From Saccharothrix algeriensis (GTDB lineage Bacteria > Actinomycetota > Actinomycetes > Mycobacteriales > Pseudonocardiaceae), in assembly GCF_016907655.1 (NCBI RefSeq), contig NZ_JAFBCL010000001.1:124001-188000 (forward strand): 64,000 nt of DNA. Reading direction: 5' to 3'. Shown one piece after another: positions 26,632-41,030 of this stretch. A program made the position numbers and the translations under genes. The notes below the pieces were generated by a model. The model saw only the letters and a program-made list of their open reading frames with translations. It searched no databases and was not told the origin of the DNA. The first letter of the stretch is position 1. Each line of letters begins with the position of its first letter.

Positions 26632-28011
26632 GTGGATCCCGTGTTGGCAGCCGACCTCGCGAAGCTCCGGGACGTGCTGGGCGCGGCCGGGAGGTACGCG
26701 GCGGACGTGGTGGTGGGGATGGGTGAGCGGCCCGTCGTCGCGCCGACCGGGGTGGAGCCGGTCGGGTTGCCGGAGGCGGGGTTGGGGTTCGACGGGGCGT
26801 TGGCCGCCTTCACCCGGCGGTGGGAGCCGGGTTTCTCCGGTTCGGCCGGCCCGCGCTACCTGGGGTTCGTCACCGGCGGGGCCACGCCCGCGGCGTTGGC
26901 GGGCGACTGGCTGGCGGGCGCGTTCGACCAGAACGCGGCGGCCCACGACGGGTCCGCGGCCAAGGGGTTCGAGCAGGAGACGGTGCGGTGGCTGGCGTCG
27001 CTGTTCGGGTTGGGCGGTGCGCACTCCGGCGCGTTCGTCAGCGGCGCCACGATGTCGACGTTCGTCGGGCTGGCGCTGGCCCGGGAGTGGCTGGGCGAGC
27101 AGCGCGGCGTGTCCGTGGCGCAGCACGGGACCGGCGGGCTGGGGCCGGTCGCGGTGTTCTCCGGCGCGCCGCACTCCAGCGTGCACAAGGCGTTGGCGAT
27201 GCTCGGCCTGGGCCGGGACAGCCTGCGCCCGGTGCCCACCCTGCCCGGTCGCGAGGCGGTGGACGTCGAGCGGTTGCGGGTGGCGTTGGCGGGGGTGGGC
27301 GGGCCCGCGGTCGTGGTGGGCAACGCGGGCACGGTGAACACCGTCGACTTCGACGACCTGGCGGCGCTGGCGCGGTTGCGCGAGCAGCACCCGTTCTGGC
27401 TGCACGTGGACGCCGCGTTCGGCGCGTTCGCGGCGCTCTCCCCCGCGCACGCGCCGCTGGTGGCGGGACTGGCGGAGGCCGACTCGGTGTGCGTGGACCT
27501 GCACAAGTGGCTCAACGTGCCCTACGACTCGGCGGTGCAGTTCACCCGCCGCCCGGACCTGCAGGTGCGGGTGTTCCGCAACTCCGCCGCCTACCTCGGC
27601 CTGCCGACCGAGGACCCCGACTTCGTCCACCTCACCCCGGAGAACTCCCGCCGGCTGCGGGCGTTGGCCGCGTGGTTCACGCTCAGCGCGTACGGCCGGG
27701 ACGGGCACCGCGAGGTCGTGGAGCGGTGCGCCGCCTCCGCCCGGCGCCTCGGCGACCTGCTCGCGGAGACGCCGTCGGTGCGGTTGCTGGCCCCGGTGCG
27801 GCTCAACGTCGTGTGCTTCACCCTCGCCGACGACCCCTCGCCCGAGCGGGTGGCCGAGGTGTCGCGGGCCATCGCCGCGACGGGCGAGACGTTCCTGTCC
27901 CCCACCGTCTACAACGGACAGCACGCGCTGCGGGCGGCGTTCGGCAACTGGCGCACCACGTCCTCGGACGCCGACCGGGCGTACCGCGCGATCGCGCGGG
28001 CGATGGGCTGA
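26632..28011 (+). CDS. Group II PLP-dependent amino-acid decarboxylase
   Basis: The 459-residue enzyme belongs to the pyridoxal-phosphate decarboxylases that act on aromatic amino acids, glutamate, or 2,4-diaminobutyrate. The PLP lysine is K292 in DLHKWLNVPYDS. The cofactor-pairing aspartate is D260 in WLHVDAAFG, and GNAGTVNTVDFDD (about 230-242) is the usual segment before it. The substrate-side segment AAAHDGSAAKGFEQE (about 102-116) is of the type seen in aromatic or diaminobutyrate decarboxylases, but specificity cannot be assigned. It starts at GTG 26632. Its place beside the LAL regulator and upstream of the Pls-like synthetase suggests it may supply or modify a monomer, an inference. 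Confidence 0.88.
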   Translation: MDPVLAADLAKLRDVLGAAGRYAADVVVGMGERPVVAPTGVEPVGLPEAGLGFDGALAAFTRRWEPGFSGSAGPRYLGFVTGGATPAALAGDWLAGAFDQNAAAHDGSAAKGFEQETVRWLASLFGLGGAHSGAFVSGATMSTFVGLALAREWLGEQRGVSVAQHGTGGLGPVAVFSGAPHSSVHKALAMLGLGRDSLRPVPTLPGREAVDVERLRVALAGVGGPAVVVGNAGTVNTVDFDDLAALARLREQHPFWLHVDAAFGAFAALSPAHAPLVAGLAEADSVCVDLHKWLNVPYDSAVQFTRRPDLQVRVFRNSAAYLGLPTEDPDFVHLTPENSRRLRALAAWFTLSAYGRDGHREVVERCAASARRLGDLLAETPSVRLLAPVRLNVVCFTLADDPSPERVAEVSRAIAATGETFLSPTVYNGQHALRAAFGNWRTTSSDADRAYRAIARAMG

Positions 28012-28921: not shown

Positions 28922-29103
28922 CCCGCACCCCCGTCCGTCGACGGGTTCGAGCGAACAGACCCGCTGCCCGGCTGTCAAGGAGGTCACCGCGTGTGAATCC
29001 CCCCACTCGGGGTCACGTTCCCCGGGCGCGCGGCGACATTCCCGGTAAAGTCGCTCTTCGGCGGTTTTCGCCGTGGCGATCGCCCAAGGCTGCCTGGCCG
29101 GTC

Positions 29104-29118
29104 CCGCACCGGGTGCGG
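29104..29118 (+). promoter_or_regulatory. Small hairpin upstream of the Pls leader peptide
   Basis: CCGCAC-CGG-GTGCGG forms a 6-bp stem with a 3-base loop, 22 bases before the GGAGG ribosome binding site of the leader reading frame. It could influence translation, or be incidental. Confidence 0.3.
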
Positions 29119-29151
29119 AGCAGCTACCCCCCCACCCCTCGGAGGACGACA

Positions 29152-29184
29152 GTGCGTCTGCGTTCAGCCGGTGCGCGCCGGTGA
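29152..29184 (+). CDS. Ten-residue leader peptide coupled to the Pls-like synthetase
   Basis: A GTG at 29152 follows a good Shine-Dalgarno sequence (GGAGG at 29141-29145, six-base gap) and encodes [10 protein letters not shown], then TGA at 29182-29184. That stop overlaps the GTG start of the synthetase (29181) as GTGA. The synthetase GTG has no ribosome binding site of its own, so translation is probably coupled through this tiny reading frame. Four of ten codons are arginine. Whether the peptide has a regulatory role is unknown. Confidence 0.55.
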   Translation: MRLRSAGARR

Positions 29185-32100
29185 CCATCGCTCCCGACTT
29201 CACCCTCGCACCAGCCCTGTTCCGCGCCCGCGCCGCCGCGCCGGAGCGCACCCTGCTCGACGTCCTGGCCGACACCGCCCGCCGGCACCCCGACGCGCCG
29301 GCCGTGGACGACGGGACGACGGCGCTGACCTACCGGGCGCTGCTCGACGAGGTCGACCGCGCCCGCCGCGAGCTGGCCGCGCGCGGCATCGGCGTCGGCG
29401 ACCGCGTGGGCATCCGCGTCCCCTCGGGCACGGTCGACCTGTACGTGTCGATCCTGGCCGTGCTGGCGGCCGGCGCGGCGTACGTGCCCGTCGACGCCGA
29501 GGACCCGGACGAGCGCGCGGAACTGGTGTTCAGCGAAGCCGGCGCGTGCGCGGTGCTGGTCGCCGACCGCGAGCTGGTCCCGCGCGGCGCGCCGATGGGC
29601 ATGGTGGGCGCGCCCGGCCCGGACGACGACGCGTGGATCATCTTCACCTCCGGCTCCACCGGCAAGCCCAAGGGCGTCGCGGTGTCGCACCGGTCGGCCG
29701 CCGCGTTCGTGGACGCCGAGGCGCGCCTGTTCCTCGCCGACGAGCCGATCGGGCCCGACGACCGGGTGCTGGCCGGCCTGTCGGTCGCGTTCGACGCCTC
29801 CTGCGAGGAGATGTGGCTGGCGTGGCGGCACGGCGCGTGCCTGGTGCCCGCGCCGCGCTCCCTGGTGCGCACCGGCATGGACCTCGGGCCGTGGCTGGTG
29901 GAGCAGGAGATCACCGTCGTGTCCACGGTGCCGACGCTGGCCGCGCTGTGGCCGGTCGAGGCGCTCGACGACGTGCGGCTGCTCATCTTCGGCGGCGAAG
30001 CCTGCCCGCCGGAGCTGGCCGAGCGGCTGGCCGTCGACGGGCGCGAGGTGTGGAACACCTACGGGCCCACCGAGGCGACCGTCGTGGCGTGCGCCGCGCC
30101 GCTGACCGGGGACGGCCCGGTGCGGATCGGGCTGCCGCTGGACGGCTGGGAGCTGGCCGTGGTCGACGCCGACGGCCGGGTGGTCCCGATGGGCGGCACC
30201 GGCGAGCTGGTCATCGGCGGCGTCGGCCTGGCCCGCTACCTGGACCAGGCCAAGGACGCCGAGAAGTTCGCGCCGCTGCCCGCCCTGGGCTGGTCCCGCG
30301 CCTACCGCAGCGGCGACCTGGTCAAGGCCGAGGAGGCGGGGCTGCTGTTCCTGGGCCGGGCCGACGAGCAGGTCAAGCTCGGCGGCCGGCGCATCGAGCT
30401 GGGCGAGGTCGACGCGGCGCTGCAGGCCCTGCCGGGCGTGGCCGGCGCCGCCGCGGCGGTGCGCACCACCAGGGGCGGCAACCAGGTCCTCGTCGGCTAC
30501 GTGGTGGCCGCTGAGGGCTTCGACCAGGCCGGCGCGGTGGCCCGGCTGCGCGCCGCGCTGCCCGCCGCCCTCGTGCCGCTGCTCGCGGTCGTGGACACGC
30601 TGCCCACCCGGACCTCCGGCAAGGTCGACCGCGCCGCGCTGCCGTGGCCGCTGCCCGCCCTGGACGCCGAGGTCGAGTCGCGCCTGGAGGGCACCGAGGC
30701 GTGGCTGGCCGAGCAGTGGGCCGAGGTGCTCGGCTCGCGGGTCGCCGGCGCCGACGCCGACTTCTTCGCCAGCGGCGGCGGCAGCCTCGCCGCGGCGCAG
30801 CTGGTGTCGCTCGTGCGCGCCCGGCACGCCGGGGTCTCGGTCAGCGACGTCTACCAGCACCCGACGCTGCGCGCGCTGGCCCGGCGGCTGGACGAGCTGG
30901 CCGCCCACGACGCGCCCGCGCGGGTCGTGGCGCCGACCCCGCGCCGCACCGCGGTGGTCCAGGCCCTGCTGACCGTCCCGCTGATGACCGTGGCGGGCCT
31001 GCGGTGGACGGTCGCCCTGGCGGCGATCGGCAACGTCCTCGGGCTGATGTCGGTGTCGTGGTGGTGGGTCGCCGCCGGCTGGGTCGCGTTCGTCAGCCCG
31101 CCCGGCAAGCTCGCCGTCGCCGCCGGCGGCGCGCGGCTGCTGCTGCGGGGCGTGCGGCCGGGCTCCTACCCGCGCGGCGGGGGCGTCCACGTGCGGCTGT
31201 GGGCCGCCGAGCGGCTCGCGGAGTTCAGCGGCGCGACCAACCTCGCCGGCTCCTGGATCACGCACTACGCGCGCGCCCTGGGCGCGAAGGTCGGCCCGGA
31301 CGTCGACCTGCACTCGCTGCCGCCGGTCACGGGCCTGCTCAAGCTCGGCCGGGGCTGCGCGATCGAACCCGAGGTCGACCTGTCCGGCACCTGGGTGGAC
31401 GGCGACCGCGTGCACGTCGGCCGCATCCGGGTCGGGGCGGGCGCGACGGTCGGCGCGCGCAGCACCCTGCTGCCCGGCGCGCGGATCGGCAAGCGGGCCG
31501 AGGTGGCGCCCGGCTCCGGCGTGGTCGGCTCGGTGCCGACCGGGCAGCGCTGGGCGGGCGTGCCCGCGCAGCGCACCGGCAAGGCCGCGCGGCCCGGTCC
31601 GCGACCGCCGCGCTCCCCGTGGTGGCAGGCCGTGTACGGGGTGACGACGTTCGCGCTGGGCCTGCTGCCCGCCGTGGCGGCGCTGCCGGCCCTGCTGCTG
31701 GTCGTGCGCGGCCCGCTGACGCTGGGCAGCGCGCTGCTCGCGGTGCCGTTGGCGACGGTGGCGTGGCTGGTCTCCTACGCGCTGCTGGTGCTGGTGTCGG
31801 TGCGGCTGCTCGGCGTCGGGCTGCGGGCGGGCGTGCACCCGGTGCACAGCCGGGTCGCGTGGCGGGCGTGGACCACCGAGCGGCTGATGAACATGGCGCG
31901 GGTGGCGCTGTTCCCCCTGTACGCCAGCCTGTTCACGCCCGTGTGGCTGCGGGCGCTGGGGATGCGGGTGGGGCGCGGCGTGGAGGCGTCGACCGTGCTG
32001 GCGCTGCCGAAGATGACCAAGATCGGCGACGGCGCGTTCCTCGCCGACGACACCATGGTCGCCTCCTACGAGCTGGGCGGCGGGTGGCTGCGCATCGCGT

Positions 32101-32963
32101 CCGCCCGGGTCGGCAAGCGGGCGTTCCTGGGCAACTCGGGCATGACCGCGCCCGGTCGCGCGGTGCCCAACCGGGGCCTGGTGGGCGTGCTGTCGGCGGC
32201 TCCCAAGCGGGCCAAGGCGGGCAGCTCCTACCTGGGGATGCCGCCGATGAAGCTGCCGCGCGCGACCGAGGAGGGCGACCAGAGCCGCACGTTCGACCCG
32301 CCGCGGCGGCTGGTCGTGGCGCGCGCGCTGGTCGAGCTGTGCCGGGTGGTGCCGGTGATGTGCCACGTGGCGCTGGTCGTGCTGGTGCTGTTCGCGCTGC
32401 GGGAGCTGGGCGCCCTCGCGCCGCTGCTGGCCGGGGCCGTGCTGCTGGCGGCGGGCGTGCTGGCGTGCGCGGTGGCGGTGCTGGCGAAGTGGGTGCTGGT
32501 CGGGCGGTTCCGGCGGCGCGAGTACCCGCTGTGGAGCGCGTTCGTGTGGCGCAACGAGCTGGCGGACACGTTCGTCGAGGTGCTGGCGGTGCCGTGGCTG
32601 GTGGGCTCGGCGGGCGGCTCGCCGCTGATGGGCGCGTGGCTGCGGGCGCTGGGCGCGCGGATCGGGCGCGGCACCTGGGTCGAGTCGCACTGGTTCCCGG
32701 AGTCCGACCTGGTCTCGCTGGGCGACGGCGCGGCGGTGAACCGGGGGTGCGTGGTGCAGACCCACTTGTTCCACGACCGGATCCTGCGCATGGACCGGGT
32801 GGAGCTGGCCGCCGGCGCGACCCTGGGGCCGCACGGGATCGTGCTGCCCGGCGCGACGGTCGGCGCGCACACCACGGTGGGGCCCGCCTCGCTGGTGATG
32901 CGCGGCGAGGAGGTGCCGGCGGGCAGCCGCTGGCTGGGCAACCCGATCTCCGCGTGGCGATGA
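29181..32963 (+). CDS. Pls/PosA-family membrane non-ribosomal peptide synthetase (poly-amino-acid synthetase-like)
   Basis: The 1260-residue protein has the Pls layout. An adenylation domain (about 1-485) shows [13 protein letters not shown] (153-165), NTYGPTEAT (292-300) and SGKVDR with K481. A carrier domain follows, with Ser535 in [11 protein letters not shown]. Three pairs of membrane helices (about 590-640, 815-875, 1050-1105) then separate three tandem C-domain-like units with acetyltransferase/hexapeptide character (about 650-800, 880-1020, 1110-1260). Known Pls enzymes (about 1319 residues) make epsilon-poly-L-lysine. The pocket residues read by eye are D205, A206, E209, S248, I269, G271, T293, V301, V302, K481 (DAESIGTVVK), consistent with lysine or another diamino acid. 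The GTG start overlaps a leader peptide stop. The ATGA overlap with the next gene couples it to an M1 peptidase. Confidence 0.9.
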
Positions 32964-34204
32964 CCGGGCAGCTCGCGCGGCACGGCGACCCGGCCGTGCG
33001 GGTCGAGGACTACGACCTGGAGCTGGACTACCGGCCGCTGACCGGGCGGCTGTCCGGCCGCGCCCGGCTGTGGGTGGCGGCGGACGGGCCGATCTCGCTG
33101 GACTTCGGCCCGTTCGCCCTCGGCAAGGTCCTGGTGGACGGCAAGCCGGCGCGGTACTCGCACGGCGGCGGCAAGCTGCGGCTGCGGCACCGGGGCGGGC
33201 GCTGCCTGGTGGAGGTGCGCTACGCCGGCACGCCCCGGCCCGTGCGGACGCGGCACTGGGGCGACCTGGGCTGGGAGCAGCTGGCCGACGGCGCGCTGGT
33301 CGCCGGGCAGCCGATCGGCGCGCCCTCGTGGTTCCCCTGCAACGACCTGGTGCGGGACAAGGCGCCCTACCGGATCTCGGTGACCACCGCGTCGCCTTAC
33401 GCGGTGGTGGCCAACGGGGTGCTGGTCGACCGGCGGACCGGGGGCAGCACCACGACGTGGGTGTACGAGCAGGTCGAGCCGATGGCCGCCTACCTGGCGT
33501 CGGTGCAGGTGGGGCAGTACGAGCGGCTGGTGCTGGCGCCGGGGCAGGGCGTCGCCGCGCCGGCGCGGCTGCGCGCGGCGGTGGCCCACGACTTCGGCCG
33601 GCAGCCGCGGATGGTGGAGCTGTTCGCGGAGCTGTTCGGGCCCTACCCGTTCCGCGAGTACCACGTCGTGGTGACCGACGACGAGCTGGAGGTGCCGGTC
33701 GAGGCGCAGGGCATGTCGGTGTTCGGGTCCAACCACGTCGACGGGCGGCGCGGGTTCGAGCGGCTGGTCGCGCACGAGCTGGCGCACCAGTGGTTCGGCA
33801 ACAGCGTCGGATTGGCCGACTGGCGCGACATCTGGCTGAACGAGGGCTTCGCCTGCTACGCGGAGTGGCTGTGGTCGGAGCACTCGGACGGCCCGCCGGC
33901 GGCCGTGCTGGCCGCGCGCGCCCGCGCCCGGCTGGCCCGGCTGCCGCAGGACCTGCGCATCGGCGACCCCGGCGAGGCCGGCATGTTCGACGACCGGGTC
34001 TACCAGCGCGGGGCGCTCACGCTGCACGCGCTGCGCGAGCGCCTGGGCGACCAGGCGTTCTTCACCCTGCTGCGGGACTGGACCAGGACCCACCGCCACG
34101 CCACCGCCACCACGGCCGACTTCGCGGCGCTGGCCCAGTGGCACAGCGTCGCTCCGCTGGGGCCGTTCTTCGACACCTGGCTGCTGGACCCGCGCCTGCC
34201 CTGA
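32960..34204 (+). CDS. M1-family zinc aminopeptidase
   Basis: The 414-residue protein carries the gluzincin motif HELAHQ at 272-277 and a third ligand E295 in WLNEGFACY, giving the exact HExxH-x18-E spacing. The exopeptidase motif usually written GAMEN is altered to QGMSV (about 250-254), so N-terminus recognition may differ. It lacks the large C-terminal helical domain of classic M1 enzymes. No signal peptide is obvious. Its ATG overlaps the synthetase stop by four bases, so the two proteins are made together. Streptomyces poly-lysine producers carry zinc aminopeptidases that degrade their own polymer; this gene may play the same processing or self-protection role, an inference from context. 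Confidence 0.88.
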
Positions 34205-37132: not shown

Positions 37133-38365
37133 TCACTGCGAAGTGCGTGCCTCCCCAGCGTAGGCCCCGGGAACGCGGGCCAGCAGCAGCACTGCGGCCA
37201 ACCCGAAGGCGGCGATCACCGCGAAGAACCAGAACCCCCACGGGTAGGCGATGCCGGCCGTCACCAGGGCCCCGGTCACGAACGGGCCGAGGATCGAGCC
37301 GAGCCGGCCCACCGCCGAGGTGAAGCCCAGCGCCGTGCCGCGGGCCTGCGCCGGGAAAGCCTGCGCCACGTAGCCGTAGATCAGCACCTGCGCGGAGAAC
37401 ACGAAGACGCCGGTCAGCAGCACCATCAGGTTGAGCAGGAAGCTGTTGCCCACCCGCAGGCTCAGCGCCGCCAGCAGCACCGCCGACGCGCCGAACCACA
37501 GCACCGCCACCGGCTTGACGCCGTGGCGGTCGGCGATCAGGCCGGCCGCCAGCAGGCCGATCACCGCGCCGACGTTGAGCACCAGCAGCAGGGTCACCGC
37601 CGTCGAGATCGGGTAGCCGGCCGTGCGCATGAGCTGCGGCAGCCACGTGTTCAGGCCGTAGACCAGCAGCAGCCCCATGAACGAGCCCACCCACACCGCG
37701 AGGCTGGTCCGCCGGAACCGGGGGCCGAGCAGGTCGCGCGGCCTGAGCCGGTCGACGGGCTCGTCCCGGACGGCCAGGAACGCCGAGGACTCCGGCAGCC
37801 GCCACCACATCAGCGGCACGACGGCCAGGCCCGCGAGGCCGCCGCCGTAGAACAGCACGTGCCAGTCCTCCCCGACCGCCAGCGCGAGCACGGACATCAG
37901 CACCGCGCCGACGTGGTAGCCGGTCATCGTGAAGGTGCTGGCGCTGGCCCTGCGCCGGGCGGGCAGGTTCTCCGACATCACGGTGAGCGCGACCGGCATG
38001 CAGGCGCCCAGCCCCAGCCCCGCCACGAACCGGAACAGCGCGAAGACCCCCACGCTCGGGGACAGGGGGATCACGAGCGTGAAGACCGAGAACAGCAGCA
38101 CTGAGCCGATGAGCAGCCGGCGGCGGCCGAAGCGGTCGGTCAGCGGGCTCAGCACCGCCGCGCCGAACGCGACCCCGATCAGCGACACGGTGGCCACCAG
38201 TGTCGCGCCGGCCGGGGTGAAGCCGAGGTGCCCGGTCTTGAGCAGGGTCGGGATCGTCGCGCCGAACGCGACCAGGTCGTAGCCCTCCAGCAGGACGGTC
38301 AGCCAGCAGAACACCGCCGTCCAGGTCGAACGGGCGGGGGTCGGGCTGGTGGGAGACGCCGCCAT
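37133..38365 (-). CDS. MFS transporter, aromatic acid:H+ symporter type
   Basis: The 410-residue protein has about 12 membrane helices and the signatures of the AAHS group. These include an acidic motif in the first helix (LLEGYDLVAFGATIPTLL, about 25-42) and the MFS loop 2-3 motif (LSPLTDRFGRRRLLIGS, about 72-88). Members import benzoate, mandelate-like or hydroxybenzoate compounds with protons. It lies 67 bases downstream of benzoylformate decarboxylase on the same strand, which suggests it imports benzoylformate, mandelate or a related acid. The ATG at 38365 gives MAASPTSPTPARS before the first helix. Confidence 0.88.
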   Translation of the reverse strand: MAASPTSPTPARSTWTAVFCWLTVLLEGYDLVAFGATIPTLLKTGHLGFTPAGATLVATVSLIGVAFGAAVLSPLTDRFGRRRLLIGSVLLFSVFTLVIPLSPSVGVFALFRFVAGLGLGACMPVALTVMSENLPARRRASASTFTMTGYHVGAVLMSVLALAVGEDWHVLFYGGGLAGLAVVPLMWWRLPESSAFLAVRDEPVDRLRPRDLLGPRFRRTSLAVWVGSFMGLLLVYGLNTWLPQLMRTAGYPISTAVTLLLVLNVGAVIGLLAAGLIADRHGVKPVAVLWFGASAVLLAALSLRVGNSFLLNLMVLLTGVFVFSAQVLIYGYVAQAFPAQARGTALGFTSAVGRLGSILGPFVTGALVTAGIAYPWGFWFFAVIAAFGLAAVLLLARVPGAYAGEARTSQ

Positions 38366-38432: not shown

Positions 38433-40019
38433 TCACTGGGGCGTGGTCAGGTGCGTGTCGACCTGGATCAGGCGGGGGCCGTCGGTCGGGGTCTTGAGCT
38501 GCGCGCGCAGGTCCTCCAGCCCGGTGACGGCGGTGGCGGGCACGCCGTAGCCCTCGGCGATGCGGGTGAAGTCCAGGCCCGGGATCTCGGTGCCGGGCAC
38601 GTCGGGCGTGCCGAGCAGCCCGCCGAACCAGCGCAGCGCGCCGTAGGTGCCGTTGCGCAGGATGACGAACGTGACCGGCACCCGGTGTCGGGCCGCGGTC
38701 CACAGGGCGGTGATGCCGTAGTTGGCCGAACCGTCGCCGATCACGGCCACCACCGGGCGCTCCGCCCGGCGCTCCGCCAGGCCCATCGCCATCCCGACGG
38801 CCGCGGGCAGGCCGAAGCCCAGGCCGCCGGAGGCCGGGAAGAAGTACGAGCCGCCGTGCCGCAGGTCCACCTGCCGCCACCACGCCGAGTTGGTCGAGGT
38901 GGACTCCACGACGTAGACGGTGTCGGCGGGCTGGGTCTCGCGCAGCGCGGCGAACACCTGCTCCGGGTGCAGCGCGTCGGGGGCCGTGGCCGGTTCGGGG
39001 TTGGGCGTGAAGCCGGTCTCCCCGGCGCGCGGCGCGGCCCGGTCCAGCAGCGCCTCGATCACCGCCGCCGGGTCGGCCACCAGCGCCTCGCCCATCGGGG
39101 CGCGGGTCGCCGCGCCCGCGTCGTCGGTCACCTGCACCAGCCGGCAGCCCTCGGGCAGGTACGGGCCGGGCACGTGCTGGTGGTAGCGGAACACCGGGGC
39201 GCCCAGCACGAGGACCAGGTCGTGCCCGGCCAGCTCGGTCGACACCGAGGCGATCCCGGCGGGCAGCACGCCCCGGAACAGCCGGTGCCGGTTCGGGAAG
39301 GGCAGCCGGTGCGGCGAGGGCGCCACCCACGTCGGCAGCGCCAGGTGCTCGGCGAGGGCCACGGCCCGGTCGAACAGCCCGGCCGCGTCGACGTCGCCGC
39401 CCAGCACCAGCGCGGGGTTGCGGGCGCCGTCGACCAGCTCGACCAGCTCCGCCAGCTGCCCCTCCCCCGGCGCGGACCCGCGCCGCACCTCGCGGCCGAG
39501 CACCGCCTCGGCGTTGGCGTCCAGCTCCTGGGCCCAGTCGTCGTAGGGCACCGACAGGTAGGTGGGGCGGCGGTGCAGCTCGGCCTCGAACACGGCCTGC
39601 GCCACCGACCGCGGCACGTCCGCCGCGCAGGTCGGCTCGCCCGACCAGCCCACCAGCGGGCGCATCAGGTGGGCGGCGTCGACGTTGGCCAGCATCGCCT
39701 CCAGCCCGATCGCCGGGCGCACCTGCTGCCCGGCGGTCAGCACCAGCGGCGAGCGCGAGTAGACGGCGTTGGTCAGCGCGCCCATCGCGTTGCCCGACCC
39801 GGCGGCGGCGTGCAGGTTGACCAGGACGGGCCGGCCGGTCGCCTGCGCGTAGCCGTCGGCCATGCCCACGACCACGCCCTCGTGCAGGCCCAGGACGTAG
39901 CGGAACGACCCGGGCAGCTCGGCCAGGAACGGCAGCTCGTTGGAGCCGGGGTTGCCGAAGATGGTGGTCAGACCTCGGCGTTCCAGGAATTCGTGGACGA
40001 TCCGGCGGACGGTCGGCAT
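38433..40019 (-). CDS. mdlC: Benzoylformate decarboxylase
   Basis: The 528-residue thiamine-diphosphate enzyme has exactly the length of characterised benzoylformate decarboxylases. Visible features are the N-terminal TFGNPGSNELPF-like segment (TIFGNPGSNELPFLAELPG, about 19-37), the cofactor glutamate in LGLHEGVVVGMADGYA, LHAAAGSGNAMGAL, and the TPP/Mg motif GDGSANYGITALW (about 425-437). It decarboxylates benzoylformate to benzaldehyde in the mandelate pathway. AGAAGGAG lies eight bases before the ATG. It diverges from a LysR gene and heads a likely transcript with an aromatic-acid transporter. No mandelate dehydrogenase or benzaldehyde dehydrogenase is in view, so the pathway is incomplete here. 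Confidence 0.88.
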   Translation of the reverse strand: MPTVRRIVHEFLERRGLTTIFGNPGSNELPFLAELPGSFRYVLGLHEGVVVGMADGYAQATGRPVLVNLHAAAGSGNAMGALTNAVYSRSPLVLTAGQQVRPAIGLEAMLANVDAAHLMRPLVGWSGEPTCAADVPRSVAQAVFEAELHRRPTYLSVPYDDWAQELDANAEAVLGREVRRGSAPGEGQLAELVELVDGARNPALVLGGDVDAAGLFDRAVALAEHLALPTWVAPSPHRLPFPNRHRLFRGVLPAGIASVSTELAGHDLVLVLGAPVFRYHQHVPGPYLPEGCRLVQVTDDAGAATRAPMGEALVADPAAVIEALLDRAAPRAGETGFTPNPEPATAPDALHPEQVFAALRETQPADTVYVVESTSTNSAWWRQVDLRHGGSYFFPASGGLGFGLPAAVGMAMGLAERRAERPVVAVIGDGSANYGITALWTAARHRVPVTFVILRNGTYGALRWFGGLLGTPDVPGTEIPGLDFTRIAEGYGVPATAVTGLEDLRAQLKTPTDGPRLIQVDTHLTTPQ

Positions 40020-40056
40020 GGGCGGGGCTCCTTCTCGCGACGGCGGCGTGGCCCAG

Positions 40057-40087
40057 ACCCTAGGAAGCGCGACCGAGTGTGTTCCAA
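40057..40087 (-). promoter_or_regulatory. Promoter of the benzoylformate decarboxylase operon
   Basis: On the minus strand TTGGAA (revcomp of 40082-40087) and TAGGGT (revcomp of 40057-40062) are spaced by 19 bases. Transcription would start near 40050, about 30 bases before the ATG. The -35 overlaps the LysR-type palindrome. Confidence 0.55.
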
Positions 40088-40098
40088 TAAATGTTGGA
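40083..40098. promoter_or_regulatory. LysR-type operator palindrome
   Basis: TCCAA-TAAATG-TTGGA is a perfect inverted repeat with an A+T-rich centre in the 102-base gap between divergent decarboxylase and LysR genes. It covers the -35 of the leftward promoter and lies 10-25 bases upstream of the -10-like TATAGA (40108-40113) of lysR, so one dimer or tetramer could control both. Confidence 0.6.
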
Positions 40099-40121
40099 GC
40101 CGATCGGTATAGACGGGATCT

Positions 40122-41030
40122 ATGGTGCGGGACTTCGACCTCAACCTGGTGCGCACGTTCGTGCTGCTCTACGAGACGCGCAGCGTCACCGCGACCGCCG
40201 AGGCGATGCACCTGACCCAGCCGACGGTCAGCTACAGCCTCCAGAAGCTGCGGCGGCGGTTCAGCGACGAGCTGTTCCGGCGGGCCCGGGGCGGCCTGGT
40301 GCCGACGGCCACCGCGCAGGCCCTGTACGAGCCGCTGCACAGCGCGCTGGCGGGCATCGAGGCGGCGGTCAGCGGGGCGTGGTCGTTCGACCCGGCCACC
40401 GCGCACGCCACGTTCACGCTGTGCCTGTCGGACCTCGGCGAGGTGACGCTGCTGCCCCGGCTGGTGGCCGCCCTGCCGGCGCGCGCGCCGGGCGTGACGC
40501 TGACCGTGCGGCCGCTGGACGTGGTCAACGCGCCCGACCAGCTCGGGCGCGGCGAGATCGACGCGTTCATCGCGTCACCGCTGTTCAGCACCCCGCGCGT
40601 GGCGCGCGTCCCGCTGTTCGCCGAGGGCTACGTCGGCATGGTGGCCGCCGACCACCCCCGGCTGGCGGGCCGGGTGGACCCGGCGGCGCTGGCGGTGGAG
40701 CGGCACATCGCGGTCTTCGGCCCCACCGGGCACGACGGGCCGCGGCGGGCGCTGGAGGCCAACGGGCTGCTGCACCGGGTCGTCCTGGAGACCACCCGCT
40801 TCACGTCCCTGCCGCACCTGGTCCGGCAGGGCGAACTGGTCGCGATGGTGCCGCGCCTGGTGGCGGAGGTGTTCGCGGCCGACCACCCGGTCCGCCTGTT
40901 CGAGCTGCCCTTCGACATCGAGCCCGCGCAGGTCTCCATCTACGCCCGCCACGCCCACGCGCGCAGCGCGGCCCAGGCGTGGCTGGTGGGGTTCATGACG
41001 GAGGTGCTCGCCGGGGCGGGGGTCCGGTGA
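40122..41030 (+). CDS. LysR-family regulator of the benzoylformate operon
   Basis: The 302-residue protein starts MVRDFDLNLVRTFVLLYETR and has the winged HTH SVTATAEAMHLTQPTVSYSL followed by QKLRRRFSDELF (about 21-52). It is of the subgroup related to aromatic-degradation and NodD-type regulators. The effector domain (about 95-295) has the usual two alpha/beta subdomains. It diverges from the decarboxylase over a 102-base spacer with a palindrome. TATAGA ends nine bases before its ATG, so the message may be leaderless. Benzoylformate, mandelate or a related acid is the expected inducer, an inference from neighbours. Confidence 0.88.
   Translation: MVRDFDLNLVRTFVLLYETRSVTATAEAMHLTQPTVSYSLQKLRRRFSDELFRRARGGLVPTATAQALYEPLHSALAGIEAAVSGAWSFDPATAHATFTLCLSDLGEVTLLPRLVAALPARAPGVTLTVRPLDVVNAPDQLGRGEIDAFIASPLFSTPRVARVPLFAEGYVGMVAADHPRLAGRVDPAALAVERHIAVFGPTGHDGPRRALEANGLLHRVVLETTRFTSLPHLVRQGELVAMVPRLVAEVFAADHPVRLFELPFDIEPAQVSIYARHAHARSAAQAWLVGFMTEVLAGAGVR

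Follow-up and report, generated by a model that had tools for sequence, protein, structure and literature searches.

The gene at positions 29181-32963 of the window, i.e. of the whole 64,000-nucleotide stretch of Saccharothrix algeriensis DNA that was analyzed, very probably directs the synthesis of epsilon-poly-L-lysine, and together with the peptidase gene behind it would represent an actinomycete pls-pldII operon. The computation yielded the domain order of the enzyme, the identity of its pocket, its clade, the gene pair, and a fold prediction that includes three beta-helix units. Because the specificity code equals that of the epsilon-poly-L-lysine synthetase (Pls) of Streptomyces albulus, the enzyme falls into the Pls clade, and a peptidase gene lies beside it, the locus is most likely another instance of a known system rather than a polymer maker of a new kind. 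The features referred to below are as follows:

29181-32963, plus strand: epsilon-poly-L-lysine synthetase (Pls) orthologue, assigned from TIGR02353, the pocket code and the tree
29268-30641, plus strand: adenylation domain (about residues 66-523 of protein P0001), from PF00501 and 70.1% identity to PDB 7wew over 482 columns
29793-29807, plus strand: codons of D241, A242 and E245 (code positions 1-3), from motif-anchored columns
30702-30890, plus strand: carrier (phosphopantetheine) domain, residues 544-606, from PF00550 (44.6 bits)
30942-31142, plus strand: predicted membrane helix pair 1 (model helices 624-656 and 663-690), from hydropathy and the AlphaFold2 (AF2) model
31287-31583, plus strand: left-handed beta-helix unit "C1" (about residues 739-837), from PF00132 at 785-817, AF2 and PDB matches
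31617-31814, plus strand: predicted membrane helix pair 2 (849-914), from hydropathy and AF2
31959-32234, plus strand: left-handed beta-helix unit "C2" (about 963-1054), from AF2 and PDB matches
32304-32498, plus strand: predicted membrane helix pair 3 (1078-1142, mostly one long run), from hydropathy and AF2
32697-32942, plus strand: left-handed beta-helix unit "C3" (about 1209-1290) with a QTHLFHD motif, from AF2 and the alignment
32960-34204, plus strand: M1 zinc aminopeptidase, PldII-like, from PF01433, the HELAH-18x-E zinc motif and the ATGA overlap
C1:4350003-4352075 of the same genome: second Pls/PosA-family synthetase (L002, also L105 7911-12215, minus strand), code DFECLSVVTK

Architecture of the synthetase

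The synthetase frame was open from 29073 to 32963 on the plus strand. The GTG at 29181 is a plausible start, and the likelier one because the homologues L009 and L011 have the same VTIA stretch there. Scans with Pfam and NCBIfam gave the order adenylation domain, carrier domain, TIGR02353 membrane domain, reproducing the Pls-type order that the initial annotation had read from the letters. PF00501 matched residues 66-388, and the small C-terminal subdomain of the adenylation domain (PF13193) was matched at residues 445-517 with 22.3 bits, below its cut-off of 24.5. The NCBIfam model TIGR02353 ("Pls/PosA family non-ribosomal peptide synthetase") was matched at model positions 1-695 of 695 (residues 628-1292) with 745.4 bits, compared to a cut-off of 423.1. 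It is exceedingly improbable that the frame is no Pls enzyme but a fragment of an ordinary NRPS in which hydrophobic stretches occur by chance: this reading is refuted by the TIGR02353 match along the whole length and by the confident AF2 model, and nothing was found in its favour.

It had also been proposed that six membrane helices in three pairs alternate with three condensation-like units. The helix pairs were borne out by prediction from hydropathy and the AF2 model. The family-mean hydropathy exceeded 1.4 at residues 625-684, 852-921, and 1085-1144; pair 1 is moderately hydrophobic, and in the protein itself it stayed below the threshold of 1.6, such that it was seen only in the family mean. 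The hydropathy scan also flagged the stretch 120-143 within the adenylation domain and, in the protein itself, 488-512, neither of which was taken as a membrane helix. The AF2 model of residues 620-1296 was based on an alignment of 67 rows (66 of 91 loci and the window sequence) and reached a mean pLDDT of 90.4 and a pTM of 0.89. It consisted of three repeats of a helix pair, helices, and beta-helix strands, with helix pair 3 appearing as a single helical run of 51 residues (1092-1142).

The "condensation-like" part of the proposal did not hold. Pfam (PF00132), the AF2 model and the PDB matches identified the three units as hexapeptide left-handed beta-helices, and neither a condensation nor a thioesterase model was among the four Pfam families found in the synthetase at E 0.001 or better. 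The condensation-domain reading was thus ruled out by Pfam, the AF2 model and the Foldseek matches. The best PDB matches found by Foldseek were hexapeptide acetyltransferases (E 1.9e-4 and weaker), which, among the matches listed, covered single beta-helices only; TMq was at most 0.18 among the 50 matches listed. The C units are thus acyltransferase-like, in line with passages on Pls in PMC8117764 and with the prediction described for PosA in PMC10522769. By analogy with that PosA prediction, the three units may pack as a pseudo-trimer. The 67-row alignment contained 42 invariant columns, and H1231 in C3 is the sole invariant histidine. Q1229, H1231, and D1235 were identical in 67 of 67 rows, including four distant paralogues, and we conjecture that this Q-x-H-x-x-x-D motif of C3 belongs to the active site.

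Substrate pocket, tree and census of family loci

Motif-anchored columns yielded the pocket residues D241, A242, E245, S284, I305, G307, T329, V337, V338, and K517, i.e. the code DAESIGTVVK, and thus the same ten residues that the initial annotation had aligned by eye. The acidic residue predicted for the third position was found as E245, at the site of the pocket Glu that we take to be position 239 in GrsA numbering. The closest solved relative was PDB 7wew, the adenylation domain of the S. albulus epsilon-poly-L-lysine synthetase. All ten pocket positions and 338 of 482 aligned adenylation domain columns (70.1%) were identical between the two, which supports the earlier proposal of a basic, lysine-like pocket. 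7wew is listed in PMC11253843 as solved with Lys-AMP, and the Pls_A contact residues given there (D213, E217, S256, T301, and K495) agree with D, E, S, T, and K in the respective columns of the window enzyme. By analogy with E217 of Pls_A (PMC11253843), E245 is expected to form a salt bridge with the side-chain amine of the substrate.

Codes of other enzymes are given in passages of PMC10522769: code position 2 is Phe in Dap/Dab enzymes and Ala in lysine enzymes, the ornithine enzyme PosA has DMEHNGTVSK, and a beta-lysine enzyme has DGESISVVNK. The window enzyme has the lysine-type Ala at position 2, and not the Phe of poly-Dab and poly-Dap enzymes or the Met of PosA. The code DAESIGTVVK was present in 80 of 80 close relatives (the best 80 of 588 confirmed matches); this uniformity is in part due to their being the best matches to the query and carries little weight by itself.

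A tree was calculated from 68 adenylation domains, with the ten pocket columns included and with 10 of 76 loci left out for which no code was read; 7wew was the only proven enzyme on it. The 41 rows with the Lys code, which include 7wew and the window enzyme, formed one side of a 100/100 branch. Five coarse code groups, defined by the first three and last two letters, together required four changes on the tree, which is the minimum possible, and the DFE..TK group by itself was not one side of a branch. The tree program warned that long branches meet between the Lys-code group and the DSECYGGVTK group; this concerns the joining of groups more than the unity of the Lys-code group.

Codes and neighbouring genes were compared at 76 loci, comprising 66 family matches, 9 of 19 further genus matches, and the paralogue from the same genome. 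The 66 comprised every match with E at or below 1e-100 in 60 family genomes, apart from those in the own genome (itself one of the 60); 62 of them were above the TIGR02353 cut-off and 4 below, and the second, short piece of one match was not counted separately. DAESIGTVVK was found at 39 of the 76 loci, and the other 37 had DFE.., DGESVSVVNK, DSECYGGVTK, DCQ.., or no readable adenylation domain code in frame. L131, L140, and L158 each showed FDFS.EE, i.e. Phe at code position 2. A full-length M1 peptidase homologue (at least 49% identity over at least 412 amino acids within the fetched stretch) was present at 34 of 39 Lys-code loci compared to 0 of 37 other loci (n = 76), three of the latter (L152, L154, and L163) having weak partial M1 matches (29-34% over 185-278 amino acids). 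A homologue of dat, the diaminobutyrate-2-oxoglutarate transaminase gene, occurred at 14 of the 76 loci, all 14 outside the Lys-code set.

Five of the 39 Lys-code loci were without the peptidase in the fetched stretch. One of these, L117, sits on a 4.2-kb contig. The other four (L145, L146, L155, and L167) are not in the main Lys-code clade but in a separate group of five with weak support (81/61), of which the fifth row, L141, has the peptidase; therefore, the code and the peptidase do not always occur together. They largely do, and the combination of code and neighbour gene (peptidase or dat) can thus separate likely poly-lysine loci, likely poly-Dab loci, and truly unassigned loci.

Several family relatives were unusual. 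L106, L112, L116, and L119 had Pls-type membrane domains, 49-54% identical to the Dab-type paralogue of the own genome, without an adenylation domain in frame. In L112 and L119, the two that were scanned, the frame retains a carrier domain, and behind the frame lies a gene of 1083 amino acids with adenylation, carrier, and thioesterase domains, resulting in a split layout. Four synthetases under the TIGR02353 cut-off (L168, L169, L170, and L171) had the code DSECYGGVTK; for a Bdellovibrionales enzyme with this code, PMC10522769 describes modest activation of arginine, the four diamino acids tried not being favoured. The pocket of L107 was DCQCLSVVT, with the last position unaligned. Gln replaces the conserved acidic third residue, and its substrate is therefore perhaps non-basic.

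Peptidase gene and genomic context

The stop codon of the synthetase gene overlaps the start codon of the M1 peptidase gene by four nucleotides (ATGA), and such an arrangement, with PldII, is described for epsilon-poly-L-lysine loci. The peptidase is probably translationally coupled to the synthetase, by analogy with PldII of S. albulus, which is described in PMC9223678 as an aminopeptidase that is located outside the membrane, has its translation coupled to that of the adjacent pls, and is required for self-protection. In C. variabile, Pls is also encoded beside a peptidase gene, and that Pls made epsilon-poly-L-lysine in S. coelicolor (PMC8117764). Among the close relatives (best 80 of 588), a peptidase homologue with HExxH-18x-E followed the synthetase in 80 of 80 cases; its start codon lay within 60 nt of the synthetase stop codon in 74 of 80, and the exact four-nucleotide overlap was found in only 30 of 80.

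Beyond the gene pair, the neighbourhood is not conserved. The upstream gene for an F420-type oxidoreductase was common to three of seven congeners and the MFS transporter gene to two of seven; neither was found in the flanks of the 80 close relatives (best 80 of 588). With regard to a foreign origin, the GC and GC3 contents of the synthetase and peptidase genes were like those of two neighbour genes. Upstream, at 26632-28011 on the plus strand, the window encodes a pyridoxal-dependent decarboxylase (PF00282), of which the best NCBIfam match was L-2,4-diaminobutyrate decarboxylase, far below the cut-off; this decarboxylase was not found near pls in 87 relatives (flanks of about 2-5 kb). On the minus strand, the window contains genes for a benzoylformate decarboxylase (38433-40406, 702.6 bits, cut-off 493) and an MFS transporter (37133-38365), the best match of which was of the aromatic-acid type (260.3 bits, below the cut-off of 418.55). 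These two genes are possibly a locus for mandelate/benzoylformate use.

The genome (6.88 Mb, one contig) contains one match to the phosphopantetheinyl transferase family (PF01648) over the cut-off. Within the genus, a TIGR02353 member over the cut-off was present in 18 of 25 genomes, the own genome included, and 7 were without. A second full-length Pls/PosA member is encoded at C1:4350003-4352075. It adjoins dat (TIGR00709, 430.1 bits, cut-off 401.6) and a gene resembling those for aspartate kinases (best match 230.1 bits, below all curated cut-offs), and a legend in PMC8117764 on the gene contexts of poly-diaminobutyrate synthetases names dat and ask. This paralogue is likely a poly-diaminobutyrate locus. 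Since its Phe-type (Dab/Dap) pocket lies beside dat, the Dab idea belongs to the paralogue and not to the window gene; dat and ask do not stand beside the latter, its neighbours being the genes for the F420-type oxidoreductase, the M1 peptidase, and a dTDP-glucose dehydratase.

Proposed product, alternatives and known systems

By analogy with characterised relatives, the adenylation domain would activate L-lysine to lysyl-AMP, and the lysine would be loaded on the carrier domain. The C-terminal membrane domain would then link successive lysines by isopeptide bonds between the alpha-carboxyl group of one and the epsilon-amine of the following one, and the resulting epsilon-poly-L-lysine would exit the cell. 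The downstream M1 peptidase would break down the polymer and thus protect the producer.

The initial annotation had held that the polymer (of lysine, ornithine, diaminobutyrate, or diaminopropionate) could be new. A new polymer, built from ornithine, Dab, or Dap, was not upheld, as all ten code positions agree with those of Pls, the enzyme falls into the Lys-code group with 100/100 support, and the peptidase neighbour goes with the code. A homopolymer of another diamino acid (ornithine, Dab, Dap, or beta-lysine) is accordingly rated as very unlikely. The Pls/PosA family does include enzymes for other diamino acids (PMC10522769), and genes for a diaminobutyrate transaminase and another synthetase are present elsewhere in the genome; the genome further has two lysine-aminomutase-family matches, both below the cut-off, so that a supply of beta-lysine is conceivable. 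However, the published codes for these substrates differ from that of the window enzyme at position 2 and elsewhere (PMC10522769), the Lys-code rows cluster as a single group on the tree, and this genome has its Dab-type enzyme in the paralogue with the code DFECLSVVTK.

An alternative to which we give a smaller, yet appreciable chance differs on the biology only and is compatible with a lysine-type Pls: the gene may be silent in ordinary culture, or the enzyme may make a short oligomer that serves some purpose besides antibiosis. C. variabile gave no epsilon-poly-L-lysine under the conditions tried, and its enzyme works in S. coelicolor (PMC8117764). A promoter and terminator scan at the locus found nothing, and the lack of a sigma-70-like promoter by consensus says little in a high-GC actinomycete. 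Against silence, the frame is intact and the gene pair is conserved across genera. It is unlikely that residues outside the code, or the C-terminal domain, change the length, stereochemistry, or decoration of the product, or that the strain makes poly-lysine and poly-diaminobutyrate from the two loci as a tuned mixture. Epsilon-poly-L-lysine, our preferred product, is a known antimicrobial polymer. A number of countries have approved it as a food preservative (PMC8117764), and another Pls orthologue would have practical use at most.

Compared to known systems, the window enzyme is closest to S. albulus Pls, with which it shares the pocket (10 of 10 positions), 70.1% adenylation domain identity (7wew), and, as described in PMC8117764, the domain order and the downstream peptidase gene. 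The two differ in the organism and in about 30% of the residues of the adenylation domain, over which they were compared. The downstream gene product, likened by description to S. albulus PldII (PMC9223678), has the same aminopeptidase family, zinc motif, position directly after pls, and overlapping stop and start codons. PosA, the delta-poly-L-ornithine synthetase of Acinetobacter baumannii, belongs to the same family, and its C-terminal domain is also predicted as beta-helices over membrane helices (PMC10522769), but its code is DMEHNGTVSK instead of DAESIGTVVK. The gamma-poly-diaminobutyrate synthetases share family and architecture with the window enzyme, whereas their dat and ask context fits the paralogue L002/L105 and not the window gene.
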